64,000 nt of DNA, taken from assembly GCF_017349315.1 (NCBI RefSeq), contig NZ_JAFMPP010000005.1, positions 62,001 through 126,000 on the forward strand. The letters run 5' to 3'. This DNA comes from Jiella flava. GTDB lineage: Bacteria > Pseudomonadota > Alphaproteobacteria > Rhizobiales > Rhizobiaceae. The translations under genes were made by a program, and so were the position numbers. The notes beneath the pieces are model-generated. The model was given only the letters and a program-made list of their open reading frames with translations. It was not told the DNA's origin and ran no database searches. This document shows, one piece after another, positions 4,171 to 57,296 of the stretch (position 1 is the first letter of the stretch; each line of letters begins with the position of its first letter).

Positions 4171-7092
4171 TCAGACGGACGCGTCGGACTTAGCCTCTGA
4201 AGCCGCCAGCCATGCCCCGACCGTCTTGGCGTCGATGGGTTTGGAGAAGTAGTAGCCTTGGCAGTGGTCGCAGTGTTCGCGCTTCAAAATCTGATATTGA
4301 CTGTCGGTCTCGACACCTTCGGCTGTGATGTCGGCGTTGAAGGTTTTGCCAAGGCTGATGATCGCGCGGATGATCGAGAGGCTGTTGGTCGAGTGGTCCA
4401 GCTCGGTGATGAAGGACTTATCGATTTTGATCCTGTCGAAATGAAATTTCTGCAAATAGGACAAGCTCGAATAGCCGGTGCCGAAGTCGTCAAGGGCAAT
4501 GTGCGCGCCGAGATCCTTGAGGCGCTTCAGAACAGCGAGATTTTCTTCGGTGTCGCCGAGGAGAACCGATTCGGTGATTTCCAAAACGAGACGGTCGGCT
4601 GAGAGGCCGGAATCGGCGAGCCCCCGCTTGACCTCTGTGATGAGGTTGGGGCGAGCGAACTGACGGACAGATAAATTGACCGCGACTTTGACGTGGCGCG
4701 GCCATGTCGCGGCGGTTTCGCAGGCGCGCCGCAAAACCCAACAGCCGATTGAGCCGATCAGGTTGATACTCTCGGCAATGGGAATGAACTCGACCGGCGA
4801 GATTGGCCCGAGTTCGGGATGGTGCCAGCGCAGCAACGCTTCGCAGTCGACCGGTCGCTTGGAACGGGCATCCACGATCGGCTGATAGACGACGTCGAGC
4901 TGATGGCGCTCGAGGGCATGGATGAGATCCCGGCGCAGCCGCCGTTCGCGATCGGCCTTCTCTTCCATTTTCGGGTCGAACAGGACAAAGCCACCGACGC
5001 CGTTCGCTTTGGCGGCATAGAGTGCGAGATCGGCGTGCTTTAGCAGTGCGTCGGCTTCGCGACCGTCCTGGGGATGGAAGGCGATGCCGATGCTGCAGCC
5101 GACCGTGACCTCCTGTTCGTCGATGTCGAACGGCTTCGAGAGACTGGCGGTGACGGCGGTGGCGAAGTGTTCGATCGCGTCCCGGCTCGCGCAGCTGCGC
5201 CCGATGATCGCGAACTCATCGCCGCCGAGACGAGCGACGATGTCGTTGGGCCCCTTGATGTCCAACAGCCGATTGGCGACCTGGCGCAGCAGCGCGTCAC
5301 CCGCCAGGTGCCCGAAACTGTCGTTGATCGCCTTGAATCGATCGAGGTCGAGGAGATGCAATGAGAAGCCCGGACTTCGATCCGCGTCGATCGAAAGTTC
5401 CAGATCGAGCAGATCCTGAAAGGCGAAGCGGTTCGGCAGTTCGGTGAGAACGTCGTGGCGCGACAGATAGCGATTGCGCTCCTCGATCTCGATTCGTTCG
5501 GTGACATCTTCCGACACGCCGAGGATGTAGAGCGGATCGCCGTTGCTGTCCGGCACGGGAACCTTCTGTGTGCGCAGGATGCGGGATCCCCGCGGCAAAC
5601 TGATCTTGTGGTTTTCGACGACAACCGCGCGGGACCCGCTCTGCACCCTTCGATCGGCTTCGAGATATTTCTCGATCTCCGCAAAGGGCAACAGCTCGCT
5701 GGTCTGCTTGCCGATGACCGCGTCACGATCCTGATCGAGAAAGCGTTCGCCGGCCCTGTTGAGCAGGACGATCCGCCCGTCTTTAACGGTCTTGACCAGC
5801 AGCATGGAGGGAATGTTCTCGATGATCGCATCGAGGAAAATCTGCGTGCTTTTCAGCTCGTTGGCGGCTCGTTCGCTTTCCGTTACGTCGATGACGGCGA
5901 CGACGATCGCGAGGCGGCCCTTGTATTGAATCCGCCGCGCGAACGTCAGAACCCGGATCCGCGCACCATCGGCCTTCACATGTGTCCAGGGTGTCGTGGG
6001 TTCGTAGGATTCTTGGACGCTGGTCAAAATCCTGGCGGCCTGTTGACGTTCCTCAGGCAGCCGGACGTCAAGGACCGACCGCGCCAACATCTCTTCGCGC
6101 GAATATCCGTAGAGTTCGCAGACCGCATCGTTCGTTGCAAGAAAGCGCAGATTGCCCGTGTCGATGATCCACATCGGAACGGGGCTCTGCTCGAACAGCA
6201 TTTGAAATGAGGCTTCGCGACGCTTGCGTTCGGAAACGTCGCGAATAATGGCGCCCATATGGATCACGTCGTCGGTCGTCCAGAAGCCGGCCGAGAATTC
6301 GATGGGCACGTCTCTGCCGCAGGCGTTGCGAATACGGGTCTCAACCGTCGACAAGGCGGTATGGCGCTGCGGCCATTTCTCAAACCGCCGCGCGGCCGCA
6401 GCGATCCGCTTGACCAAGGATGCGGGCAGCAACTCCGCCAGCGGCTTGCGGAAAAGCTCGTGCTCGTTCCAGCCGATAATCCGCTTTGCCGCGGAATTGG
6501 CATAGGTGATGGTGCCGGGCAGAGCGACGTGCAGAATGGCGTCCGAGGTTGTTCGGCTCAAGGCGAGGGCGGCATTGTGTTCTTCGGTCAACCGCTTCAG
6601 TTCGAACTGGTCCATGACCAACTTGGCAAGCGTGAGCAGGCGCCGCTGGTCTTCGTCGGAAAAGTCGAGGCGGGCGCGAGTGTCCGCGATGCTGAGAGCG
6701 CCGATGACATAACCACGTGGCGTGATCAGCGGCGCTCCGGCGTAAAAACGGACGTGCGGATCTTCGACGACCTGTGGAGCGAATTTGAAACGGGGGTGCT
6801 CGTGTGTATCAAGGATGGTGGTGACACTATTGTTGTCGACAGTATAAGCGGAAAACGAGCTTTCGCGCGATGCCTCGTTATCTTCGAAGCCAAACCGCGA
6901 TCTGAACCAGATGGAGTCTTTCTCGATGAGCGAAATGAATGCGTATCGGGCGCCAAAGATGTCCGACGTCAATCCGACGATGTGATCGCTGAGGTGAGGA
7001 GGCCGCTTCTTCAGAAATTTGTACTTTGAGACTTCTTCAAGACGAAGCGATTCATAATCGCTCAACGTCGTGTCGGCGGGCGCGTGGCGCAT
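4171..7092 (-). CDS. GAF-PAS-PAS-PAS-GGDEF-EAL cyclic-di-GMP turnover protein
   Basis: A 973-residue soluble signalling protein with no membrane segment. In order: a GAF-like sensor (about 18-165), three PAS domains (about 172-290, 292-410, 412-535), GGDEF (about 545-705) and EAL (about 722-960). The diguanylate cyclase site RLGGDEF (621-627) is intact, and no RxxD inhibitory site is seen five residues before it. The phosphodiesterase site is also complete: CEALLR (750-755), NLSVRQ, EITES, DDFGTGYSS (868-876), DKSF and AEGVE. Both activities could therefore operate, with the sensor block deciding the direction. Its promoter should lie in the AT-richer stretch 7093-7210. It is transcribed alone. 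Cyclic-di-GMP commonly governs exopolysaccharide output and motility, and an exopolysaccharide locus lies 13 kb away, but a direct link is inference. Confidence 0.93.
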   Translation of the reverse strand: MRHAPADTTLSDYESLRLEEVSKYKFLKKRPPHLSDHIVGLTSDIFGARYAFISLIEKDSIWFRSRFGFEDNEASRESSFSAYTVDNNSVTTILDTHEHPRFKFAPQVVEDPHVRFYAGAPLITPRGYVIGALSIADTRARLDFSDEDQRRLLTLAKLVMDQFELKRLTEEHNAALALSRTTSDAILHVALPGTITYANSAAKRIIGWNEHELFRKPLAELLPASLVKRIAAAARRFEKWPQRHTALSTVETRIRNACGRDVPIEFSAGFWTTDDVIHMGAIIRDVSERKRREASFQMLFEQSPVPMWIIDTGNLRFLATNDAVCELYGYSREEMLARSVLDVRLPEERQQAARILTSVQESYEPTTPWTHVKADGARIRVLTFARRIQYKGRLAIVVAVIDVTESERAANELKSTQIFLDAIIENIPSMLLVKTVKDGRIVLLNRAGERFLDQDRDAVIGKQTSELLPFAEIEKYLEADRRVQSGSRAVVVENHKISLPRGSRILRTQKVPVPDSNGDPLYILGVSEDVTERIEIEERNRYLSRHDVLTELPNRFAFQDLLDLELSIDADRSPGFSLHLLDLDRFKAINDSFGHLAGDALLRQVANRLLDIKGPNDIVARLGGDEFAIIGRSCASRDAIEHFATAVTASLSKPFDIDEQEVTVGCSIGIAFHPQDGREADALLKHADLALYAAKANGVGGFVLFDPKMEEKADRERRLRRDLIHALERHQLDVVYQPIVDARSKRPVDCEALLRWHHPELGPISPVEFIPIAESINLIGSIGCWVLRRACETAATWPRHVKVAVNLSVRQFARPNLITEVKRGLADSGLSADRLVLEITESVLLGDTEENLAVLKRLKDLGAHIALDDFGTGYSSLSYLQKFHFDRIKIDKSFITELDHSTNSLSIIRAIISLGKTFNADITAEGVETDSQYQILKREHCDHCQGYYFSKPIDAKTVGAWLAASEAKSDASV

Positions 7093-46893: not shown

Positions 46894-47129
46894 GAAATGA
46901 TATCCTCTCAGGGATCATGGAGACAGCCGTCATCGGTCGGAGCGATCAGCCCCGTTGCGGACGAACGGAAAAAAAACAGCGAGGAGCCGTCAGGAGAGAT
47001 GGCGCACGACACCAGGATCCGGCACGAGCCAGACTGAGCGTCGAGACGAGGAGGGAGGGCAAATGCGCTAAGTGAGCGCCGTCACGGCAGATCCTTTCCG
47101 AGCATCCCCGCTCGAGAGTGGATTGAAGG
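46894..47129 (-). promoter_or_regulatory. Untranslated region between riboswitch and btuF
   Basis: Expression-platform region. It contains an 8-base T run on the minus strand at 46969-46976. No ORF or perfect stem before the T run is evident by eye. Confidence 0.4.
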
Positions 47130-47375
47130 TCAGACGGCAGGTCTCCTGGCTCGCGGACGAAGGCACCTCTCATCAGCCTTCCCGTGGCGATGGTCACCAC
47201 AGTGGCGCGGCTTCGATCGTCTCGAAGCCCACCGCGCCGCTATCGGGAGCGTCGCGGGGATGATCGGCATCCGCTTACAGTTGCGGGGGCAGCCACGGTT
47301 TCGGCCCCGATTTGGGTCGTCCTCACCGTGTTCCCTTTTAATCCCCGTCGTGTCGATGACCGGGGAACCGTCGTT
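47130..47375 (-). ncRNA. Cobalamin (AdoCbl) riboswitch upstream of btuFCD
   Basis: Read on the minus strand, the conserved pieces occur in order: GGTTCCCCGG...GGGGATTAAAAGGGAA, then GCTGCCCCCGCAACTGTAAG, CCACTG, GGGAAGG, GATGA and finally GCGAGCCAGGAGACCTGCC. This is the full AdoCbl riboswitch consensus, including the B12 box (47136-47154). It lies about 235 bases upstream of btuF; an 8-base T run on the minus strand (46969-46976) lies between, but I see no clear terminator stem before it, so control could be by termination or by translation. Binding of cobalamin should switch the importer off. Confidence 0.93.
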
Positions 47376-47422
47376 AGCTGCCTAAGCGATCTTCCGGACA
47401 GGGTCAAGCGGTTTGGCGCGGC

Positions 47423-49147
47423 TTACACCACCAGCGGCGCATAGTGATGCGGCAGCCGCATCAGAACGAGATCCTTGCGGCGCACGACATGGGTCGGATA
47501 GGCGCCGCCGAGGCTGCCGGTCTCGATTTCGGCGACAGCGAGGCTGGCATTGTCGGCGACCAGAGCCTCTGTGCGGGGGAACAGGAAGGTGTCGGGGCCG
47601 AAGACACCGGACAGGCCAGGATAGCCGTCCATCGGTGCGAACACATTGGCGAAGGCGAAGTAGCAGTTGTTCTCGCCGCCGCGCACCCGGAACTGATGCC
47701 AGTGCAGCGGATCGGCACCGGTTGGAATCGGCGTCGGCTGGGCGATCGTGGTACCGTCATGGGCAAGATGAAAGCTGCCCTTCACCGCGGCCGGGCAGGC
47801 GATGACGTCGCAGCCGCGAAGAGCGAGAACCCGCCCGGCCTCGGGGAAATCGGCGTCATGGCCGATGAGCAGCCCGAGCCGGCCGAAGGGCAGATCGAAC
47901 ACCGCCCAGTCATCGCCGGCGCTCGCCCAGCCGCGATCGCGTTCGCTGAGATGGGTCTGGCGATAATGGCCGACAAGGCCGTCTGGGCCGACCAGAACGG
48001 CGCTGTTGTAGCGCGTCTCACCCTCCGCTTCGGCAAGGCCCACGACGATGAACAGGCCGGTCTTCGTGGCAATCTCGATAAGGCTGGCAACGGCCGGATG
48101 ATCAAGCGCGATGGCGCTTGCGGCTGGATCGGCCAAGCCGGTCAAGGCCCGTTCGGGCAGCACCAGGAGTTCGGCGTCGTCGCCGGATGCTGTCTCGGCC
48201 AGCGTTTCGATCTGGCGCAGATTGGTGGCGCTGTCGCCTTCCGGGGCGAACTGACCGACGGCGATTTTGGCGCCGCGCCCGGCGGGCAGCGGCCGGTGGC
48301 CGTAAAGTTTGAAGAAGTCGCTGGGGTTCCAGGCGAAGGTGTTGGTCATCAGCTCCTTGTAGAGTTCCGGCCGGCGCTGGGCGATCACCGGCTCGCCACG
48401 CATCCGGCCTTGGCGGGCCCGATCGGGGTCAATCGTCGCGGTAATCACCCCATCGCCGCCGTCGATCACCGCCATGATCTCGGCCTCGGGGCCGATGATG
48501 CAGCTCCCGCCGGAGAACTGGACGCCACGCTCGAGCCCCCAGCGATTGCTTTCGATCAGATAGCAGCCATTCTCATAGGCTCGGTTGATCCAGTAGGGCG
48601 CCGGCGTGCGCTCGGCGAGCCAGTTGGAAATGTGACAGATGACATCGGCTCCACCCACGGCCGTCAGCCGGGCGGTTTCGATGAAATGGATGTCCATGCA
48701 GATCAACAGGGCGATCTTGCCGAGCCGGGTGTCGAACACCTGGTGGCCGCAATCGCCGCTGGCGGCCCATTTCGGCTCGGAAATGTAAGGGTGGGTCTTG
48801 CGATGGGTCCCGACGACGCCGTCCGGGCCGATCAGCACCGCCGCGTTGTAGTAAAGGTCGGTGGTCGGATCGACCTCGGGCATGCCGATGACGATGAAGA
48901 CGTTGCGCCGCTTGGCGATCTCGGCGAAGCGCGCCGTCGTCTCGCCCGGCACCGGCTCGACCATCGATGCGACTTCCGCCCGATCGTACCAGCAATAGCC
49001 GGTGGTGCCCATTTCCGGTGTCACGATCAGTTCGGCGCCGGCATCGGCGGCCGCCTCGACCAGCCGGGCGAGCGCTTCGATGTTGCCGGCCTTGTCGCCC
49101 ATCGTGGGCTCAAACTGCACGGCGGCGGCTTGGAAGGGCGTGGTCAT
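47423..49147 (-). CDS. Tandem nitrilase-superfamily protein: active first domain, degenerate second domain
   Basis: A 574-residue protein with two carbon-nitrogen hydrolase domains. Domain 1 (about 6-245) has the complete Glu-Lys-Cys triad: E45 in VTPEMG, K117 in THRKTHP and C150 in LLICMDIHF. Domain 2 (about 292-545) keeps E332 (VLPERALTG) but has Q397 (YRQTHLS) in place of Lys and G429 (LLIGHDADFPEAG) in place of Cys; both codons were read directly (47957-47959 and 47861-47863). Domain 1 probably hydrolyses an amide, nitrile or carbamoyl compound; domain 2 may bind or serve assembly. ATG 49147 has GGAG upstream. It is the last gene of the amide unit. Confidence 0.87.
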   Translation of the reverse strand: MTTPFQAAAVQFEPTMGDKAGNIEALARLVEAAADAGAELIVTPEMGTTGYCWYDRAEVASMVEPVPGETTARFAEIAKRRNVFIVIGMPEVDPTTDLYYNAAVLIGPDGVVGTHRKTHPYISEPKWAASGDCGHQVFDTRLGKIALLICMDIHFIETARLTAVGGADVICHISNWLAERTPAPYWINRAYENGCYLIESNRWGLERGVQFSGGSCIIGPEAEIMAVIDGGDGVITATIDPDRARQGRMRGEPVIAQRRPELYKELMTNTFAWNPSDFFKLYGHRPLPAGRGAKIAVGQFAPEGDSATNLRQIETLAETASGDDAELLVLPERALTGLADPAASAIALDHPAVASLIEIATKTGLFIVVGLAEAEGETRYNSAVLVGPDGLVGHYRQTHLSERDRGWASAGDDWAVFDLPFGRLGLLIGHDADFPEAGRVLALRGCDVIACPAAVKGSFHLAHDGTTIAQPTPIPTGADPLHWHQFRVRGGENNCYFAFANVFAPMDGYPGLSGVFGPDTFLFPRTEALVADNASLAVAEIETGSLGGAYPTHVVRRKDLVLMRLPHHYAPLVV

Positions 49148-49227: not shown

Positions 49228-50226
49228 TCAGGCGGCGAGGCCGGCGATCGACTTCAGCACCGAGGCGCCGACCGTGTATTTCGGATCGACCATGTTGCCG
49301 AGGCGGACGCGGCCGCATTGGGTGAGCAGCATGTAGGCGTCAATCTCGTCGAAGCCGAAATCGGCCGCCATCCAACGGATCAGCTCGCGATAGGCGCCGC
49401 GGGCGGCGTCCTCCATCGGCCGGGACGAGCCGATGGTCATGTAGAAGGACTCGTTCTCCAGCCGCGGCGTCTTGATCGTCCAGCCCTTGATGAGATCGAT
49501 GCGCAAGGTGGTGACCGTCGGATGCTCGATGGCGACGCCGCAGAGTTCGCCGTCACCTTGGGCCGCGTGGCAGTCGCCGACATAGAGATAGGCGCCGTCG
49601 GTGTTGACCGGCAGATAGATCACCGCGCCCGGCGCGACGTCCGGCAGATCCATGTTGCCGCCGTAATAGTCCGGGACGAGCGAGGAGATCGCTTCGATCT
49701 CCGGCGCCGTGCCGATGGTGCCGATGAACGGCTCGTAGGGCAGCGAGATCGTGTCGTTCCACTTGACGCCGGTGGCCTCGTCGACCTCGAGCTTTTTGAC
49801 CCGCTCCGGCAGCGCCGGGTTCAGCATCGCCGTATCCGCGGTCGGCACCAGGCCGCCGAATTCCGGCATGATCACCGTGGTGCCGCGTGGCTGCGGACCC
49901 CTCGGCACGATGCTCTCGATGTAGACGGCGAGGCAGTCGCCCTTTTCCGCACCATTGACGTAGATCGGACCGTTCTGCGGGTTGAGATAAGGGAAGTTGA
50001 GGATCTCGCTCGGCTTGTCGGTTTCCTTCTGGATCTTGCCCTCGAAAGCATCGTGGGTCTCGGCCGAGACCACCGCGCCGGGATCGACGGTGAGGATCGG
50101 ATCGGCATAGGCGCCGTAGACGTAGTGATAGCGGCCCTGGCTCGCTTCGGTGATGGAATGGCTCGTCAGGGCCTGGCCCTTGGCGACGGCCTTGCGGGCC
50201 ATGATGGATTGGTCGAACCAGCTCAT
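49228..50226 (-). CDS. fmdA: Acetamidase/formamidase (FmdA/AmdA family)
   Basis: A 332-residue member of the FmdA_AmdA family, which hydrolyses formamide or short aliphatic amides to ammonia and acid in the cytosol. Recognisable segments are the early ADPILTVDPGAVV with ETHDAF, GPIYVNGAEKGDCLAVYI, DAYLYVGDCHAAQGDGE-like positions (YLYVGDCHAAQGDGELCG) and FDEIDAYMLLTQCG. ATG 50226 follows GAGGA. It lies between the transporter ATPase and the tandem nitrilase, so amides brought in by the transporter are the likely substrates. Confidence 0.9.
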   Translation of the reverse strand: MSWFDQSIMARKAVAKGQALTSHSITEASQGRYHYVYGAYADPILTVDPGAVVSAETHDAFEGKIQKETDKPSEILNFPYLNPQNGPIYVNGAEKGDCLAVYIESIVPRGPQPRGTTVIMPEFGGLVPTADTAMLNPALPERVKKLEVDEATGVKWNDTISLPYEPFIGTIGTAPEIEAISSLVPDYYGGNMDLPDVAPGAVIYLPVNTDGAYLYVGDCHAAQGDGELCGVAIEHPTVTTLRIDLIKGWTIKTPRLENESFYMTIGSSRPMEDAARGAYRELIRWMAADFGFDEIDAYMLLTQCGRVRLGNMVDPKYTVGASVLKSIAGLAA

Positions 50227-50269: not shown

Positions 50270-50992
50270 TCAGACCGCGAGATAGCGGCGGACAGTATCG
50301 CGATCGTCCAAAGCGGCCTTGTCGATTTCGGCTGTGACGGTCCCCTTGTCCATGACGTAGCAACGCTCCGCCATTGCTCGGATCATGTCCAGATTCTGCT
50401 CGACGAAGACCACGGTGATGCCGGTCTTGGCGTTGAGCTCGACAATAATGCGGGCAATGTCCTGGACGATGTTAGGCTGGATGCCTTCCGACGGCTCGTC
50501 GAGCAGGATCAGATCGGGATCGCCCATCAGCACCCGGCCGATGGCGAGCTGCTGCTGCTGGCCGCCGGACAGCGTACCGGCGCGCTGATGGCGCCGTTCC
50601 TTGAGGATCGGGAAGAAGCTGTAGATCTGCTCCAGCCGGACCTTCGCCTCGCGCTCGCCGGACTGGTCGATCGACTGGCCGACGAGGAGATTTTCGATCA
50701 CGCTCATGCGGGGAAAGACGTCGCGCCCCTGCGGGACGTAACCGATGCCGAGCCGCGCCCGCTTGTGGGCGGAGAGGCCGTGAACCTCGGCGCCTGCGAA
50801 CAGGATCGCGCCCTTTTGCGGCGGTATCAGGCCGATCAGGCTCTTCATCAGCGTCGACTTGCCGACCCCGTTGCGGCCGATCACCGCGACGATCTCGCCC
50901 TCGCGCACGCTGATATCGACGCCTTGCAGCACCGGTTTGCCGCCATAGCCGGACCGCAGGCCCATGGTTTCGAGAAGGACCTCCCTACGCAT
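50270..50992 (-). CDS. urtE: Amide/urea-type ABC importer ATPase, UrtE/LivF-like
   Basis: A 240-residue LivF-type ATPase. It begins RREVLLETMGLRSGYGGKPV; Walker A is GRNGVGKS, the signature is LSGGQQQQ and Walker B is LILLDEPSEGIQPN, which is the UrtE form. ATG 50992 overlaps the urtD end by 8 bases. With UrtD it drives the UrtBC-like channel. Confidence 0.88.
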   Translation of the reverse strand: MRREVLLETMGLRSGYGGKPVLQGVDISVREGEIVAVIGRNGVGKSTLMKSLIGLIPPQKGAILFAGAEVHGLSAHKRARLGIGYVPQGRDVFPRMSVIENLLVGQSIDQSGEREAKVRLEQIYSFFPILKERRHQRAGTLSGGQQQQLAIGRVLMGDPDLILLDEPSEGIQPNIVQDIARIIVELNAKTGITVVFVEQNLDMIRAMAERCYVMDKGTVTAEIDKAALDDRDTVRRYLAV

Positions 50993-51701
50993 GGACCTCT
51001 CCGAGATAAATCGCGGCGACGCGCTCGTCGGCGACGATCTCGTCGATCGAGCCCTGCGCGAAGACCTTGCCAAAATGCAGCACGGTGACCTTGTGGGCGA
51101 TCTGGCGCACGAAGGCCATGTCGTGCTCGACGGCGAGCACGCTGACGCCCTCGGCATTCAGCGCCTGGACCATCTCGCCGGTGGCGAAGGTCTCGTCCGG
51201 CGTCATGCCGGCGGTCGGCTCGTCGAGCAGCAACAGCTTCGGCTTCAGCGCGATCGCCATGCCGATTTCGAGCCATTGCTTCTGACCGTGGCTGAGCGCG
51301 CCGGCGAGCTGCTTTTCCGCGTCTTTGAGCTTCAAAAACTCCAAGAGCCGATCGATCTCTTCGTCGAGCGAGGCACCGACGAGATGATGCTGCAGCGCGA
51401 TCTGCAGATTCTGCCGGACCCGCAAGGCCTGGAAGATGCCGGGCACCTGGAACTTGACCGAAATGCCCCGGCGGATCCGCTCGAACGGCTTTTCCTTGGT
51501 GATGTCGGCGCCGTCATAGAGGATGGCGCCGGCAGACGACGTGTGTTCGCCAAGCACGAGCCGGAAGAAGGTGCTCTTGCCGGCACCGTTCGGGCCGATC
51601 AGGCAATGCACTTCGCCGGTTTCGACGGTGAAGTCGACATTGTCGGTGACGTGCAGGCCGCCAAACCATTTGTCGAGCTTTTGGGTTTGAAGGATCGCCA
51701 T
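50985..51701 (-). CDS. urtD: Amide/urea-type ABC importer ATPase, UrtD/LivG-like
   Basis: A 238-residue LivG-type ATPase with Walker A GPNGAGKS, signature LSHGQKQWLEIG, and Walker B LLLDEPTAGMTPDET. The AGMTPDET ending is close to the UrtD form rather than LivG. ATG 51701 forms TGATG with the urtC stop. Confidence 0.88.
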   Translation of the reverse strand: MAILQTQKLDKWFGGLHVTDNVDFTVETGEVHCLIGPNGAGKSTFFRLVLGEHTSSAGAILYDGADITKEKPFERIRRGISVKFQVPGIFQALRVRQNLQIALQHHLVGASLDEEIDRLLEFLKLKDAEKQLAGALSHGQKQWLEIGMAIALKPKLLLLDEPTAGMTPDETFATGEMVQALNAEGVSVLAVEHDMAFVRQIAHKVTVLHFGKVFAQGSIDEIVADERVAAIYLGEVHA

Positions 51702-52777
51702 CACGCCGTCTCCCGAGCCAGCCGACGCCGCAAGCCCTTGGAGACAAATGAGCCGACGGTGATGATGATGCCGCTCGGTGCGGCGAGAATGGTGACGACC
51801 AGGAGCAAGCCCATGACGACCAGGGCGTATTGGCTGCCGTAGATCGTCAGGGCCTGGAAGCCGGCAAGGACCAGCAGGGTGCCGACCAGCGTCGTCGTCA
51901 GATCGCTGCGGCCGCCGACGGCGACCCAGACCACCGGCAGCGCTGCGGCCGACATGCCCATCGAGGACGGGGTGATGTAGTTGCCCCAGGCGGTGTAGAG
52001 GACGCCCGAGAGACCGGCGAGGGCCGAACCGATGACAAAGCCGATCAGCTGATACTTGCGCACGTCGTAGCCGAGCATTTCGGCCCGCTGCGGATTTTCC
52101 CGAATCGCCACCAGAACGTTGCCGAAGCGCGAATTCACCAGCATGCGCAGGGCGAGATAGGCGATCACCAGCAGGGCGAGCGTGACGTAATAGAGCGGCA
52201 CGTCGGGAAAGAGCACCACGTCGCCGCCCGGCCAGGGAATGGTCAGCGACGGCATGTTGCCCATGCCGTTGAAGCCGTTGAGGCGGGCTGAGCCGATCAC
52301 CCATTGCGGGCCGGCGGTCTGCGACATGAAGCGTTCGAGCACCAACGTCACCGACAAGGTGACGATGCCGAGGAACACGCCGCTGATCCGGCCGAAGAAC
52401 AGGAAATAGCCGAGAACCGCGGCAAACAGCGCCGAGAGACCGACGGCGGCAAGAAGCGAGACCAGCGTCAGGCCGTAGGCGTCGCCGAGATTGATGGTGA
52501 GGACGCCATAGGCGTAGCCGGCGACACCGAAGAACGCCGTCTGACCGAAGGAGAGGGCACCGCCATAGCCCCAGATCAGGCTGAGCCCGAGCGCCATGAA
52601 GGCCCAGTTGAAGAAGTAGACGTTGTTGCCGACGTCATAGCCGTCCGCAAACAGCGGATAAATGCAGGCGAGCGCCAGAACGACGACGAAGCCGGACCAG
52701 AAGCCGATCCCCTTGCCGAGGGTCTGTGGGCCTTCGAGAAGACGGAAGGCAGACGTGAAGGCGTTGGGTGAAGACAC
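51701..52777 (-). CDS. urtC: Amide/urea-type ABC importer permease, UrtC/LivM-like
   Basis: A 358-residue LivM-family permease with about ten spans; the family blocks GLSLIWGYGGALSFGQTAFF and RENPQRAEMLGYDVRKYQLI are present. It follows urtB with one base between coding regions. Confidence 0.88.
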   Translation of the reverse strand: MSSPNAFTSAFRLLEGPQTLGKGIGFWSGFVVVLALACIYPLFADGYDVGNNVYFFNWAFMALGLSLIWGYGGALSFGQTAFFGVAGYAYGVLTINLGDAYGLTLVSLLAAVGLSALFAAVLGYFLFFGRISGVFLGIVTLSVTLVLERFMSQTAGPQWVIGSARLNGFNGMGNMPSLTIPWPGGDVVLFPDVPLYYVTLALLVIAYLALRMLVNSRFGNVLVAIRENPQRAEMLGYDVRKYQLIGFVIGSALAGLSGVLYTAWGNYITPSSMGMSAAALPVVWVAVGGRSDLTTTLVGTLLVLAGFQALTIYGSQYALVVMGLLLVVTILAAPSGIIITVGSFVSKGLRRRLARETA

Positions 52778-52778
52778 G

Positions 52779-53651
52779 TCAGGCCCTTTCCCGCAAGATG
52801 AAGCCTGTGAGGCCGCGTGGCAGCACGCGGATGACGAGAACGACGGCGACGAGCAGGCCGATCTGGCCGGCGAGCTGACCTTGCCAGGAGGTCAGTCCCG
52901 CCTTGACCACGGCGAGGATCGCGGCGGCCGGCGCGGTGCCGAGGAAGATGTCCGCGCCGCCGACGACGACGGTGACGAAGGCCTCGATGACGAAGGTCGC
53001 GCCCATCGTCGGCACCAGCGTCATCGTCGGGGCGTAGAGACCGCCGGCAAGGCCCGCGAGCGCCGCGCCGAGGCCGAAGGTGAGCATGTAGATGAGGGAG
53101 GTGTCGACGCCGAGCGCCTCGGCGATGTGCGGCACCTGGATGGTGGCGCGGGCCAGAACACCGAAGCGGGTGCGGGTGAAGATCACCCAGAGCAAGGCGA
53201 GGGTGGCGACGGCGGCGGCCATCAGCACGAGCCGGTAGATCGAATAGCCGTAGCCGCCGACCATGAAGCTGCCGAAGGGCGTGCCGGTGCTCTGCATCGA
53301 CGGTCCGAGCAGGATCAGCGTGCCCTGGGTCGCGATCATCGAGATGCCCCAGGTGACGACGATCGTATCGAGTGGCCGGGCATAGAGCCGGCGGATGACG
53401 ACGCGCTCGAGCAGCATGCCGACAAGGCCGGCGACGAGCCCGCCGAGGAGAATGGAAAAAGGCAGCGGCAAGCCGAGATGGGCAGCGGTCGTCGAGACAT
53501 AGGCGCCGCACAGGATGAATTCGCCATGGGCAAGGTTGATCACCCCCATCATGCCGAAGATCACCGCAAGGCCACAGGCGGAAAGGACCAGAAAGGCGAA
53601 GGCGTCTCCGGTCTGGTAGAGAAAGGCAAAGAGGCCGGACAGAAAATCCAT
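52779..53651 (-). CDS. urtB: Amide/urea-type ABC importer permease, UrtB/LivH-like
   Basis: A 290-residue LivH-family permease: FGMMGVINLAHGEFILCGAY in the N-terminal part and GVLARATIQVPHIAEALGVD in the coupling region. ATG 53651 is used; the open frame upstream (to 53777) overlaps the hairpin region and is not coding. It is separated from the binding-protein gene by 168 bases. Confidence 0.87.
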   Translation of the reverse strand: MDFLSGLFAFLYQTGDAFAFLVLSACGLAVIFGMMGVINLAHGEFILCGAYVSTTAAHLGLPLPFSILLGGLVAGLVGMLLERVVIRRLYARPLDTIVVTWGISMIATQGTLILLGPSMQSTGTPFGSFMVGGYGYSIYRLVLMAAAVATLALLWVIFTRTRFGVLARATIQVPHIAEALGVDTSLIYMLTFGLGAALAGLAGGLYAPTMTLVPTMGATFVIEAFVTVVVGGADIFLGTAPAAAILAVVKAGLTSWQGQLAGQIGLLVAVVLVIRVLPRGLTGFILRERA

Positions 53652-53819: not shown

Positions 53820-55061
53820 TTACTTGCCGTCCTTCTTGGGGTTCTGAGACGGCGTATACTGGGCTTCCGGATTGCTCTTGGTCAGATCGCAGCCGACCTG
53901 GCCGAGCCAGTAGGGCTTCACGTCCTGCCAGATCTTCGGGAAGGAGATCGAGTGATCCTCGTTGACCTTCGCCAGATAGATCGTGTGTGACATGTGCTGG
54001 CTCTTCGGGTCGATACAGACCTTGCCCTCCGGCGCATCGAGGCAGACGTCGCCCTTGGCGATGACCTTGCGGATCGCGTCGTGGTTGGTGCTGCCGGCGC
54101 GCTCGACCATCTCCTTGTAGAGATAGACGGCGTCATAAGAGTTCTCGGCCTCCTGGTTGATATAGGGCTCGTCCGGGAACATCGCGTGCCAGCGCTTCAC
54201 CAAGTCCTTGCTTTTCGGATTGTCGACTTCCTCGATCCAGTTCGTGGTGACATACATGTTGGCCAGCGAGGGCGCCTTGAAGCGCTTGTGCTCGTAGCCC
54301 TGGCCGACATTGACCGACGAGGCCATCGGTAGCTTCAGATTGGCCGAGAGCGCCTGTTCGTAATAGGACGACTGGGCGGTGCCGACGAGCAGGGTGACGA
54401 CGAAGTCCGGTTTGGCCTTCTGGATGTTCTGGATGGTCTGCGAGAACTGCGAGACGCCGAGCGGGATGAACTCCTCGCCGACCATCTGGCCGCCATTTTC
54501 CTTGACGATGTCGCGGACCCATTCGGCCGAGATCTGACCGAAATTGTAGTCGGCGGCGATCGTGTAGACCTTCTTGCCGAACTTTTTCATCATATAGGGA
54601 AGCAGCGTCGAAAACTGCTGTTCGGGCACCGCGCCGGTGACGATCATATTGGCGTCGCAGACGCCGCCTTCGTATTGGTTGTTGTAGAAGGCGAGGCCCT
54701 TAAACTGGTCGACGATCGGCCGATAGGCCTCGCGCGAGGCCGAGGAAAAGCCGGCGAAGACGACGTCGACCTTGTCGCGCTGCAGGACCCGGCGCATGAA
54801 TTCCTGATAGCGGCGGTTGTCGGACTGGGTATCGTAGATCACCAGCTTGATCGGGCGGCCGTCGATGCCCCCCTTGGCGTTGATTTCCTTCGTTGCCAGC
54901 TGGATGCCATGCACCTTGCCGATGGTGGCGAGGGCGAAATCACCGGACTGATCTTCGAGGACGCCGATTTTGATCGGGGTCTTGTCCTCGGCCAGGGTCG
55001 CCGTCGACAAGGCAAAAAGGGTCCCCAGCGCCGCGAGGGCGCTTGCTGCGTGCTTGTCCAT
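53820..55061 (-). CDS. Periplasmic amide/urea-binding protein (FmdD/UrtA-like)
   Basis: A 413-residue type I binding protein of the Peripla_BP_6 family, with a Sec signal (MDKHAASALAALGTLFALST, cleavage near LAE-DK). It begins PIKIGVLEDQSGDFALATIG and has KEINAKGGIDGRPIKLVIYD and the middle YTIAADYNFGQISAEWVRD. It is a paralogue of the cytosolic AmiC encoded upstream; both would recognise short amides or urea. It lies 21 bases after amiR. Confidence 0.88.
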   Translation of the reverse strand: MDKHAASALAALGTLFALSTATLAEDKTPIKIGVLEDQSGDFALATIGKVHGIQLATKEINAKGGIDGRPIKLVIYDTQSDNRRYQEFMRRVLQRDKVDVVFAGFSSASREAYRPIVDQFKGLAFYNNQYEGGVCDANMIVTGAVPEQQFSTLLPYMMKKFGKKVYTIAADYNFGQISAEWVRDIVKENGGQMVGEEFIPLGVSQFSQTIQNIQKAKPDFVVTLLVGTAQSSYYEQALSANLKLPMASSVNVGQGYEHKRFKAPSLANMYVTTNWIEEVDNPKSKDLVKRWHAMFPDEPYINQEAENSYDAVYLYKEMVERAGSTNHDAIRKVIAKGDVCLDAPEGKVCIDPKSQHMSHTIYLAKVNEDHSISFPKIWQDVKPYWLGQVGCDLTKSNPEAQYTPSQNPKKDGK

Positions 55062-55082: not shown

Positions 55083-55739
55083 TTAGTCGGCGGATCGGAG
55101 CTGTTGGGGCGGCTCGGATCCGCATTCGGGTCTCGCCGCACTCCGTTGGACGACGAATTGGCAGTAGGTTTCAATGCTGACGCGGGCGTGCATGCTCTGG
55201 TTGCGCAGATGCGCGAAGGCGGCTTCATCGTCGCAGCCGCGTTCGCGCATGACCTCAAGCACCGCCTTGATGACGAAGCGGCGCTGGTGCCGGCGTTGTT
55301 CCTGCGCCTTGATCACCTCGGCCTGAGCGGCCTTGCGGGCATGCTCGTTGATGGCGAGATAGAGCGCCGAATAGACCGCGCCGGAATGGATCGGCTTCGG
55401 TATAAAGGCGGTCGCGCCGAGTTGCATCAGGGTCTTCAGCCGGCTCGGCGCCTGCATGCCGACGAGGCCGATCACCGGCACCAGCGGGGTTAGTCCATCG
55501 CTCTTCAGCCGCGGGATGAAGGGCATGCGCAACAGATCGCCGTCGATGAGCACGACGTCGCGGCTGGCGTCGAGATCCTCCGCCGACCATTCCAGCGGCG
55601 CTTCGGCCATGCTGTTTTCGTTGACGATCAGGCCAAGCCGCCCCAGCACCGGCGAAAGCGTCGCTCCGAGCCTTGTATCGTCGCTGATGAGGATTGCGTT
55701 TCGGTGGCTGAAATTCTGGATGTAGCGGTGCACGGCCAT
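55083..55739 (-). CDS. amiR: AmiR-like ANTAR-domain transcription antiterminator
   Basis: A 218-residue RNA-binding antiterminator. Residues about 13-130 form a receiver-like domain (AILISDDTRLG, VVLIDGDLL with D66 and D68, FIPKP) followed by a coiled-coil linker and the ANTAR domain (about 137-198: RRFVIKAVLEVMRERGCDDE, AFAHLRNQSM). AmiR of Pseudomonas is held inactive by AmiC and released when AmiC binds amide; it then disrupts a terminator in leader RNA. The gene forms TGATG with amiC. A leader with two hexaloop hairpins and a terminator lies before amiC. Confidence 0.9.
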   Translation of the reverse strand: MAVHRYIQNFSHRNAILISDDTRLGATLSPVLGRLGLIVNENSMAEAPLEWSAEDLDASRDVVLIDGDLLRMPFIPRLKSDGLTPLVPVIGLVGMQAPSRLKTLMQLGATAFIPKPIHSGAVYSALYLAINEHARKAAQAEVIKAQEQRRHQRRFVIKAVLEVMRERGCDDEAAFAHLRNQSMHARVSIETYCQFVVQRSAARPECGSEPPQQLRSAD

Positions 55740-56896
55740 CAGATCACCCTCAGCTTCGGACGGGTGGAAACGATTTCGAGAGGCGGTGTCGTTCTGACGA
55801 GATAGGGATCGGGTTGCACCGGTCGTGCGGCTTCGACCAGGATGTCGAACTGGCAGTCGGAGCGCGAGCGGCCGATCCGTGGCGTCAGATAGGTGTGCAT
55901 GGTTTCGGGGTCGAGCGTGACTCGGCCCTGGGGGGCTTGGAAGCTTTCGCCCCGCGCGGCCGACCGGACGTGGCTCGCATCGTCGCTGCCGGCCTTGGCG
56001 AGCGCGGCGGCGAGGAAGCGGAGGGCAATATAGGCCGCCTCGGCTTCCACCGATGCCGGCGGGCCATCCGGGAACATGGCGTTGTAGGTTGCCACGAAGC
56101 GCTGGTTCGCGGGGCTGTCGATCGAGGTGAAATAGACCGAAGAGCTGAGATGGCCGTCGACCGCTTCCGGCCCGATTTCTAGGAGTTCCGGTTCGGAGAG
56201 GTTGCAGCTGGCGATCGGAAAGCGCGTCTTCTGGTCGATGCCGCGGGCCGCGCAGGCGGCGCGGAACTGGCGGAAGAAGTCATAGGCCGATTGACCGATC
56301 AGGGCGTTGAAGACAAAATCCGGCTTCGCCTTGATGATCGACGCGATGATCGTCTCGAAATCGGTCTCGCCGACGGCGACGTAGCGCTCGAAGAGCACCC
56401 GGCCGCCGCGCTCGGTGAGATCCTCGCGCAGCACGCGGCTGCTCTCCCAGCCCCAGATGTAGTTCGAGCCAACGCAGCAGGCCTTCTTGCCGTGGTTCTC
56501 GACGAGATGATCGACCAGGGGCGACATGTGATGGTTGGGCGCGGTGCCGGTATAAACGACGTTTTCCGAGCTTTCGAAGCCCTCGTAGTGGGCCGGATAC
56601 CAGAGCAGCGCGTCGCGCTTTTCGAACAGCGGGATGACCTCTTTGCGGCTCGACGAGGTGTAGCAACCGACAACCTGGCGGATGCCACGCTCGAGCATCG
56701 CCTCGGCGGCGGGCGCATAGGCGGTGAGTTGGCTGCCCGGATCGATGATTTCCGGCACGAGCTGGATCGCGCCAGCCGGGTCTTCATTGGTCTCGCGGCA
56801 GGCCATCAGCGCCCCCTGCAGCATCGTCCTGCCGACGGCGCCATAGCTGCCGCTGGTCGAGAACAAGATGCCGATTGGATAGCGCGTCGTTGTCAC
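55739..56896 (-). CDS. amiC: AmiC-like amide sensor, negative regulator of AmiR
   Basis: A 385-residue Peripla_BP_6 protein without a signal peptide (MTTTRYPIGILFSTSGSYGA), so it is cytosolic. It contains the AmiC-family blocks GRTMLQGALMACRETNEDPA, VGCYTSSSRKEVIPLFEK, LLWYPAHYEGFESSENVVYT and GSNYIWGWESSRVLREDL. By analogy it binds amides and releases AmiR. It is the first gene after the antitermination leader, with its ATG 17 bases from the terminator T run. Confidence 0.92.
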   Translation of the reverse strand: MTTTRYPIGILFSTSGSYGAVGRTMLQGALMACRETNEDPAGAIQLVPEIIDPGSQLTAYAPAAEAMLERGIRQVVGCYTSSSRKEVIPLFEKRDALLWYPAHYEGFESSENVVYTGTAPNHHMSPLVDHLVENHGKKACCVGSNYIWGWESSRVLREDLTERGGRVLFERYVAVGETDFETIIASIIKAKPDFVFNALIGQSAYDFFRQFRAACAARGIDQKTRFPIASCNLSEPELLEIGPEAVDGHLSSSVYFTSIDSPANQRFVATYNAMFPDGPPASVEAEAAYIALRFLAAALAKAGSDDASHVRSAARGESFQAPQGRVTLDPETMHTYLTPRIGRSRSDCQFDILVEAARPVQPDPYLVRTTPPLEIVSTRPKLRVI

Positions 56897-56912
56897 ATCA
56901 AGGCCTCAACAC

Positions 56913-56946
56913 AAAAAAACCCGTCAGCACGAAAGTGCTGTCCGGG
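56913..56946 (-). terminator. Intrinsic terminator in the amiC leader
   Basis: On the minus strand CCCG-GA-CAGCAC-TTTC-GTGCTG-A-CGGG is followed by TTTTTTT (complement at 56913-56919). It is a complete Rho-independent terminator placed 17 bases before the amiC start codon, so the whole unit must be read through it. Confidence 0.88.
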
Positions 56947-57007
56947 CGACACTGCCGATATTCCATGAAGGTGTCATTGTCCGGCGCATTATTGAGCAAC
57001 GTTGCTC
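56945..57007 (-). promoter_or_regulatory. Putative ANTAR target: two hexaloop hairpins
   Basis: Hairpin 1 (56994-57007) reads GAGC-AACGTT-GCTC on the minus strand: a 4-bp stem with hexaloop AACGTT. Hairpin 2 (56945-56956) reads GGC-AGTGTC-GCC: a 3-bp stem with hexaloop AGTGTC. Both loops have A at position 1 and G at position 4, as described for ANTAR target RNAs. Hairpin 2 overlaps the 5' arm of the terminator by 2 bases, so the two cannot form together. The 37-base gap between the hairpins is longer than usual. Confidence 0.55.
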
Positions 57008-57017
57008 TGCGCACAGG

Positions 57018-57050
57018 ATTTAAGCTGGCGCGTTTCCGAAGGCTTGTCAA
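57018..57050 (-). promoter_or_regulatory. Possible promoter of the amiC unit
   Basis: On the minus strand TTGACA (57045-57050) is followed 21 bases later by TTAAAT (57018-57023). The -35 is perfect, but the spacing is long for a sigma-70-type promoter, so the -10 assignment is uncertain. Confidence 0.35.
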
Positions 57051-57296
57051 GCGCTGGTGTTTGCGTTTTCAAACTTTCCTCGATCGGCTTGCCAGACGCC
57101 GAAAAATCTGTCCCGCTAGGGCATTGGCCCGAACAGTTGAACGCCGGCGGGCGGGGACGATGTCCGGAGGATCTGTCCAAGAGATCAGGGATTGGGGGCG
57201 TTTTCGCGCGTCGGCTTGTCGGCTCGGCGTGTGATCGAAACGGGTGGCGAGGGGCCGCCTGCGGCGCAATGCAATCGAACCGCGAAAGATCGATCC

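Follow-up and report, generated by a model that had tools for sequence, protein, structure and literature searches.

A probable ANTAR-type transcription attenuator in the leader of an amiC-amiR operon of Jiella flava

The leader upstream of amiC

The stretch of DNA analysed here (the window) comprises 64,000 nucleotides (nt) of the alphaproteobacterium Jiella flava (assembly GCF_017349315.1, contig NZ_JAFMPP010000005.1, positions 62,001 to 126,000), and all positions below are those of the window. On its minus strand lie nine consecutive genes, headed by amiC and amiR, which code for a homologue of an amide sensor and for an ANTAR protein, and continued by genes for a urea-type ATP-binding cassette (ABC) transporter, a formamidase-family protein and a nitrilase-family protein. 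The subject of this report is the leader that precedes amiC. It has the defining features of ANTAR leaders and belongs to that known class, and it is very probably a transcription attenuator worked by the AmiC and AmiR proteins of its own operon. This interpretation is carried by the observed elements of the leader and the way in which they are conserved and covary, by the incompatible pairing of two of them, by the predicted fold of AmiR and by the linkage with amiC-amiR. From the promoter to the start of amiC the elements are:

57045 to 57050, minus strand: -35 element TTGACA, read from the sequence
57022 to 57027, minus strand: probable -10 element CAGCTT after a 17-nt spacer, placed by comparison of relatives and weak with respect to the consensus
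56984 to 57012, minus strand: outer stem P0, GCGC at 57012-57009 pairing with GCGC at 56987-56984 and enclosing P1
56994 to 57007, minus strand: hairpin P1, GAGC-AACGTT-GCTC, with A1 and G4 in the hexaloop, read directly
56945 to 56956, minus strand: antiterminator hairpin P2, GGC-AGTGTC-GCC, with A1 and G4 in the hexaloop and a stem of 3 bp, read directly
56920 to 56946, minus strand: intrinsic terminator CCCG-ga-CAGCAC-TTTC-GTGCTG-a-CGGG, the 5' arm of which has 56946-56945 in common with P2
56913 to 56919, minus strand: T7 run of the terminator, read directly
56904 to 56907, minus strand: GAGG, probable ribosome-binding site, read from the sequence

Direct reading thus bears out the two hexaloop hairpins, the terminator with its T run and the overlap of the second hairpin with the terminator arm, on which the original prediction of an ANTAR switch had been built. 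The weak points conceded there are also real, namely the 3-bp stem of P2 and the long spacer, as 37 nt separate P1 from P2. Two corrections are needed. The outer stem P0 around P1 had been overlooked, and amiC starts with a GTG at 56896, 16 bases past the T run, and not with an ATG, because the ATG at 56898 is directly met by a TGA.

Transcription would start near 57014, almost at the first base of P0. The leader contains, as expected of an ANTAR target, two hairpins with stems of 3 bp or more and loops of six nucleotides, and P2 and the 5' arm of the terminator compete for the two bases 56946-56945, so that their pairing is mutually exclusive. Forcing P2 costs 5.8 kcal/mol above the minimum-energy fold; the terminator is the stable state, and P2 therefore needs a protein to win. 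A generic terminator scan found one terminator here, against 0.4 expected in shuffles for a stretch of such size.

Conservation and covariation among related leaders

The window sequence alone would not show the motif to be more than chance; the comparison with relatives does. Relatives were collected by a scan with AmiC, from which the best 80 of 441 loci were taken, and 81 amiC leaders were compared in all (L numbers are row labels). Twenty-nine leaders, the window included, were aligned as one layout and are called class I; they represent 29 of the 33 rows of their AmiC clade.

In this alignment the antiterminator helices P0, P1 and P2 pair in 96.4% of the cells, compared with at most 49.0% when the 3' partners are slid, and 13 cells have changes on both sides, where shuffles give 2.6. 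Taken singly, P0 is paired in 92.9% and P1 in 99.1% of the cells, each with two of its four pairs changed on both sides, and P2, which is near-invariant, in 97.6%. For the terminator the corresponding figures are 93.5% of cells paired (at most 50.7% when slid) and 34 cells changed on both sides (11.1 in shuffles), with such changes in six of the ten pairs. RNAalifold recovers P0, P1 and the terminator unaided. TTGACA or TTGACG is found near the same site in 29/29 class I leaders, counting L003, where the script picked a later TTGATA as -35 element and the TTGACA was read from the sequence. The distance between P1 and P2 ranges from 27 to 37 nt across the class.

The loops are conserved to different degrees. 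A1 is present in the P1 loop of all 29 leaders and G4 in 22 of them; G4 is found in the P2 loop of 16 of the 28 leaders with a clear register, and those 16 have A1 and G4 in both loops. The original prediction had named loss of the A1/G4 loops, or of the overlap with the terminator, in orthologous leaders as the observation that would overturn it. Near the window the reverse is seen, since all nine rows of the nearest clade (window, L003-L009 and L034) keep A1 and G4 in both loops as well as the terminator overlap, which supports the reading as ANTAR antitermination. Farther out G4 holds less than A1 and the overlap do: with these two retained, G4 is lost from both loops in seven Rhodobacterales, and from P2 alone in three Phyllobacterium, L021 and L030. 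As a separate observation, in L029, which is outside all counts, a P2 of sequence AGC-AAATGC-GCT can be seen by eye on the terminator, so that both sides of the otherwise constant GGC/GCC stem are altered.

Specificity of the leader

A covariance model (R1) built from the 29 class I leaders identifies one place in the 4,158,665-base genome, with an E value of 1.7e-22, the next match being at 1.25. No second target was thus found by R1 in the genome, nor any elsewhere in the window, with the proviso that targets of other layouts were not sought by the model and could be missed. Among 101 genomes of the family, six have a match at E<=0.01, and amiC lies directly behind it in five of the six; of these five, the window and L087 belong to the model and three are fresh.

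Association with amiC is equally marked when P2 is sought by a simple rule. A strict scan for GGC-N6-GCC on a terminator is positive in 67/81 amiC leaders, while 0.0077 are expected per 342-nt window, as calculated from the flanks of 80 loci on both strands, and a looser P2 rule is positive in 75/81 leaders against 0.109 expected. The loop found by the strict rule begins with A in 65 of the 67 leaders; the same holds for 6 of the 45 control sites taken from the flanking DNA.

The AmiR protein

By sequence the window AmiR is only weakly matched (1QO0 chain D at 0.0041). Its AlphaFold model, with a mean predicted local distance difference test (pLDDT) score of 89.4, places it more firmly: in a Foldseek search of the PDB the two AmiR chains of 1QO0 rank first (template modelling score 0.60-0.64 by query length) and RNA-bound EutV (6WW6) third. 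The modelled arrangement of a receiver-like domain, a coiled coil and an ANTAR domain is that expected of an AmiR.

Among the 78 AmiR frames compared, which include one wrong frame (L070), residues were placed by their offset from EutV Met172. The equivalents of EutV Arg168 and Met172 are kept in 76/78 and 77/78 frames, respectively, and the position of EutV Tyr164 is aromatic (Tyr, Phe or Trp) in 70/78. The receiver Asp is found in 77/78 and the Lys in 76/78 frames, and the acidic pair is not conserved. For the structure alignment of AmiR, 67 of 81 rows were used after removal of near-duplicates, of frames outside 185-232 aa and of the wrong frame L070.

The presumed nine-gene operon

The genes behind the leader are the following, the values being those of family or structure matches:

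55739 to 56896, minus strand: amiC, amide-sensor homologue with GTG start (Pfam PF13433, 1.5e-123; Pseudomonas aeruginosa AmiC, 1PEA, 7.3e-62)
55083 to 55739, minus strand: amiR, receiver-like domain, coiled coil and ANTAR (PF03861, 3.4e-9), with one base in common with amiC
53820 to 55061, minus strand: urtA-like substrate-binding protein (TIGR03669, 1.2e-184)
52779 to 53651, minus strand: urtB-like permease, probable start (TIGR03622, 2.7e-96 on the longer open reading frame (ORF), below the model cut-off)
51701 to 52777, minus strand: urtC-like permease (TIGR03727, 8.1e-108, below cut-off)
50985 to 51701, minus strand: urtD-like ATPase, probable start (TIGR03411, 5e-74 on the longer ORF, below cut-off)
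50270 to 50992, minus strand: urtE-like ATPase, probable start (TIGR03410, 2.7e-83 on the longer ORF, just below cut-off)
49228 to 50226, minus strand: fmdA, acetamidase/formamidase family (PF03069, 5.2e-36)
47423 to 49147, minus strand: nitrilase-family protein (PF00795, 2.1e-80; NCBIfam)

AmiC has a Peripla_BP_5 fold according to Pfam, and no signal peptide is evident by eye in its N-terminus. That amiR is the second gene of the unit, as originally stated, is confirmed by the gene order. The nine-gene unit itself stands as nine consecutive genes on the same strand, and their close spacing suggests a single transcript, the largest gap being the approximately 168 nt between urtA and urtB. In most class I loci urtA, urtB, urtC, urtE and fmdA follow amiR where the contig is long enough; these five genes and the nitrilase gene were scored, and no nitrilase match was seen in class I loci, most of which end inside fmdA. 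Among the clade rows that were left unaligned, the only urt genes of L032 are distant ones, and L033 has fmdA alone.

Two further features were noted at the downstream end. The nitrilase-family protein contains two CN_hydrolase stretches within one 574-aa chain, and a Cobalamin riboswitch (Rfam RF00174, 99.5 bits) is found at 47119-47387, minus strand, downstream of the nitrilase gene and ahead of the genes that follow on that strand.

Proposed mechanism and alternative readings

The following sequence of events is proposed. RNA polymerase would start near 57014 and transcribe a leader of roughly 100 nt, almost all of which is switch. By default the terminator (56946-56920 and its T7 run) would form, and most transcription would end before amiC. 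AmiC with a bound amide would release AmiR, the inducer being probably formamide, a short amide or urea, as judged from gene content only. A dimer of AmiR would then bind the RNA, first at the P1 loop, which P0 holds out, and would capture the P2 loop next; a possible role of P0, which lies almost at the start of the transcript, is to keep P1 at the 5' end. With P2 occupying the foot of the 5' arm, the terminator would lose the pairs beside the U run, and polymerase would read into amiC-amiR-urtABCDE-fmdA-nit. The idea that AmiR holds P2 and opens the foot of the terminator is taken by analogy from EutV, NasR and AmiR, as set out in the available text of PMC3369931, PMC8934654 and PMC3369936. 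Control would thus be positive and, as read-through yields more AmiC and AmiR, the prediction is of an amide-induced, self-amplifying operon in which one switch stands before sensor, regulator, transporter and two amide-type hydrolases.

Several observations weigh against this interpretation. The 37-nt spacing of P1 and P2 greatly exceeds the 5-12 nt found in eut leaders; a short linker was not treated as defining because it is a trait of eut leaders, and linkers of variable length were permitted in the published search model. A generic scan calls no sigma-70 site, the -10 box being poor, and no match at E<=10 was obtained in 56850-57150 with any of 4227 Rfam covariance models. The leader folds with an unremarkable energy (z -1.10), which 32 of 200 shuffles attain as well. 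No covariation is seen for P2 in the 29-leader alignment, and further pair types in the terminator are not above shuffles (15 versus 13.8, reached in 138/500). Four of the 33 rows of the clade (L029, L031, L032 and L033) gave no clear leader of class I layout and were left out, and in L091 the R1 match has no amiC behind it. As to the protein, AmiR_N is below its Pfam cut-off, and all four residues of a true receiver (the acidic pair, Asp and Lys) are present in the window AmiR. Control of AmiR by phosphorylation is thus possible; control by AmiC is the likelier, because amiC adjoins amiR.

Of the other explanations, the least unlikely is that the leader is an ANTAR target of the other ANTAR protein of the genome, which is NasT-like, or that both proteins act, so that nitrate would control the operon instead of, or besides, an amide. 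The genome does have two ANTAR matches, the second of which adjoins a frame that by eye is NasS/NrtA-like, and both loops of the leader fit the general A1/G4 rule of NasR-type proteins. By taking into account that the link of the leader with amiC-amiR holds from family to family, and that the ANTAR residues of AmiR and the loops both vary from clade to clade, as expected of a cognate pair, we consider this explanation unlikely.

The remaining two dispense with ANTAR recognition, and we give either of them very little credence. P1 is a perfect 14-bp palindrome, GAGCAACGTTGCTC, and could be imagined as a DNA operator bound by a repressor downstream of the promoter, with the terminator as a plain boundary element. 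This reading of P1 is largely refuted by the comparison with relatives, which keep the stem pairs while their loops (AGCGTT, AAGGCT, AACGAT, AAATGT) break the palindrome; P1 moreover lies inside a covarying RNA stem, and P2 with its terminator overlap would be left unexplained. The structure could likewise be the terminator of an upstream transcript, or a constitutive attenuator that no protein controls, given that the terminator is sound on its own. Such a terminator needs neither conserved P0, P1 and P2 nor the preference for A1 in the P2 loop described above (65/67 versus 6/45), and it would not account for the TTGACA/TTGACG that stands just upstream, on the same strand, in every class I leader. 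Thus, attenuation by the operon's own AmiC and AmiR is retained as by far the best-founded explanation.

A wider family of leaders and a clade without P1

Beyond class I, P2 (GGC-N6-GCC on the terminator) was located by script in 75 of the 81 amiC leaders, 72 with A1 and 25 with G4. This count holds two doubtful cases, L012, where P1 was taken as P2 and the leader's own P2 has a 7-nt loop, or one of 5 nt on 4 bp, and L071, the register of which is unsure; a recount without these two and with L032, read by eye, gives 74 leaders, 72 with A1 and 25 with G4. The script found no P2 in L029, L032, L033, L042, L067, L077 and L097, with L042, L067 and L097 at a contig edge. In an order-wide search of 347 genomes with a distant AmiC as query, 65 had a match at E<=1e-70; in the best 30 loci, taken for comparison, P2 is present in 29, A1 in 28 and G4 in one.

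Three leader layouts follow the AmiC tree, which was built by a quick method with support from the Shimodaira-Hasegawa-like approximate likelihood ratio test (SH-aLRT) only. Class I has P0 and P1 at a gap of 27-37 nt. In a mixed group most leaders carry a hairpin no more than 6 nt from P2, with a loop mostly of 5-8 nt. The third layout belongs to a clade of 12 rows (support 99, a starred branch) in which no P1 is visible. In a second tree, to which the 30 loci were added, the clade gains two rows and no more: L092 within it, for a total of 13 rows (support 99), and L094 at the base, for 14 (support 95). The resulting rows are L044-L046, L048-L052, L060, L065, L073, L074, L092 and L094; they include Brucellaceae, two Rhizobiales isolates, Mesorhizobium, Nitratireductor, Ensifer and Gellertiella, and four of the 14 are near-identical.

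A hairpin close to P2 occurs in 0/14 leaders of this clade, compared with 49/61 of the other leaders outside class I, according to a rule (stem pairs and GC pairs together 7 or more, loop of 4-8 nt, 0-6 nt before P2) that was fixed after the leaders were seen. A close P1 is also missing in the other 12 of the 61 (L031, L047, L061, L071, L079, L080, L082, L093, L102, L109, L114 and L119), and its absence is therefore not unique to the 14-row clade. In the 12 P1-less rows that were checked only 10-20 nt separate the predicted start from P2, and this segment has no fold better than -0.9 kcal/mol; the starts were predicted from -35 elements, and several of the -10 boxes are weak. A CCGGC-7 nt-GCCGG hairpin located 2 nt upstream of P2 is shared by L035, L064, L066, L072, L104, L107, L112, L113 and L116, and a G often occupies the middle of its loop.

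The protein side was compared at the position of EutV Glu160, which in 6WW6 hydrogen-bonds G4 of the loop, as reported in the available part of the source. All 14 rows of the P1-less clade have Ala or Ser at this position, a lead and not a proof, because a single clade is concerned and ancestry alone could explain it. A co-variation of G4 with residue 160 was also considered for class I, where G4 in P2 goes with Asp (17 rows) and its absence with Glu (11) or Asp (2), and it is not claimed: just three independent pairs lie on starred branches, Glu occurs with G4 in seven other rows, and L128 breaks the association, having Asp160 without G4 in P2.

From these comparisons we would, by a modest margin, favour the view that the amiC-amiR leaders of Alphaproteobacteria are one family, the fixed core of which is a single P2 (GGC-A-N5-GCC on a terminator), with P1 far and clamped, close, or missing, and that in the 14-row clade a single hexaloop that lacks G4 would suffice for antitermination by one AmiR dimer. 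That clade may hold natural single-hexaloop ANTAR attenuators, contrary to the EutV model. The family offers natural variants, in which the spacing is 37 nt, G4 is absent, the P1 loop differs or P1 is missing, and each of them has its own AmiR beside it; what an ANTAR dimer needs is therefore testable with ready-made pairs. Two AmiC-AmiR systems with differing leader layouts are found in the genomes of Aureimonas glaciei (L123, L128) and A. pseudogalii (L124, L129). These two species, with two systems each, provide a natural test of specificity.

Comparison with known systems

Among the matches listed by a search of the open-licence part of PMC (on single-hairpin or single-hexaloop ANTAR attenuators, on ANTAR with formamidase, acetamidase or urea transporter, and on ANTAR with rhizobia) no paper deals with this leader family, some members of which may already stand in the predicted-target tables of PMC3369931. 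A guess similar to ours, of formamide uptake, has been put forward in PMC13209695 (2026), in the portion available, for a urt transporter beside a formamidase.

Among the closest described systems is the amiE leader of P. aeruginosa, which shares with the window operon an AmiC homologue, an ANTAR AmiR and a leader with P1, P2 and a terminator, as far as the available text of PMC3369931 and PMC3369936 describes it. The two differ in that the regulators come first in the window, where a urea-type ABC transporter, FmdA and a nitrilase replace the AmiE amidase. The window AmiC is only distantly like that of P. aeruginosa (7.3e-62), and the leaders were compared by description. The original prediction had contrasted the autoregulation of AmiC and AmiR in the window with the situation in P. 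aeruginosa. The difference in gene order stands; regulators behind their own leader are not new, because in P. aeruginosa amiEBCRS amiC and amiR are also downstream of the amiE leader.

Another such system is the acetamidase operon of a Klebsiella plasmid. According to the available part of PMC13209695 it combines amiC and amiR with an ABC transporter and an acetamidase and has been published as one controlled by AmiC-AmiR antitermination. Plasmid CP008789 has the regulators in first place, and by eye a P2-like GGT-AATGAA-GCC can be made out on a terminator before amiC; the differences are a transporter of the peptide type and the absence, by eye, of a clear A1/G4 P1. L084 (around 5830-5990) is a conjugative Klebsiella plasmid with amiC-amiR, a peptide-type ABC transporter, an acetamidase and a GGT-AATGAA-GCC hairpin on the terminator before amiC. 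Of the 1496 plasmid records with an AmiC-like match, 848 are from Klebsiella, some of the listed matches being urtA; a tblastn search of plasmids gave no match of at least 60% identity to P. aeruginosa AmiC.

NasS-NasT of Alphaproteobacteria resembles the proposed system in its logic, since a binding protein holds the ANTAR protein and frees it on ligand binding, and the binding of NasT to leader RNA is reported in the available text of PMC3795266. The difference is in the signal, which is nitrate or nitrite, and in the controlled genes, which are those of nitrate metabolism.

The eut leaders of Enterococcus faecalis, which are recognized by EutV, have two small A1/G4 hexaloop hairpins, the second of which overlaps a terminator, as in the window, and some of the contact residues of the ANTAR domain are kept. 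They differ by a linker of 5-12 nt, compared with 37 nt, by a P1 that is not clamped by a P0, and by a EutW kinase in place of the AmiC-type sensor. In the excerpts available, a 14-nt linker failed in vivo with EutV, and an additional 20 nt failed in vitro. ANTAR attenuators have been described as paired A1/G4 hexaloops (the accessible part of PMC8164766 presents the approximately 400 known firmicute and proteobacterial targets as dual stem loops in which A1 and G4 are conserved), and the EutV work regards both hairpins and a short spacing as necessary during transcription. The available text of Walshe et al. reports that EutV binds a single hexaloop and holds both to be necessary for antitermination; it also points to some Mycobacterium tuberculosis targets and to EutX as existing departures from the dual motif, expects single-hexaloop targets where the time limit set by the polymerase is absent, and calls for more bioinformatics. 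The P1-less clade is a case in point and, if the family is as proposed here, the requirement for two A1/G4 hexaloops would be the trait of a lineage and not a rule of ANTAR antitermination.

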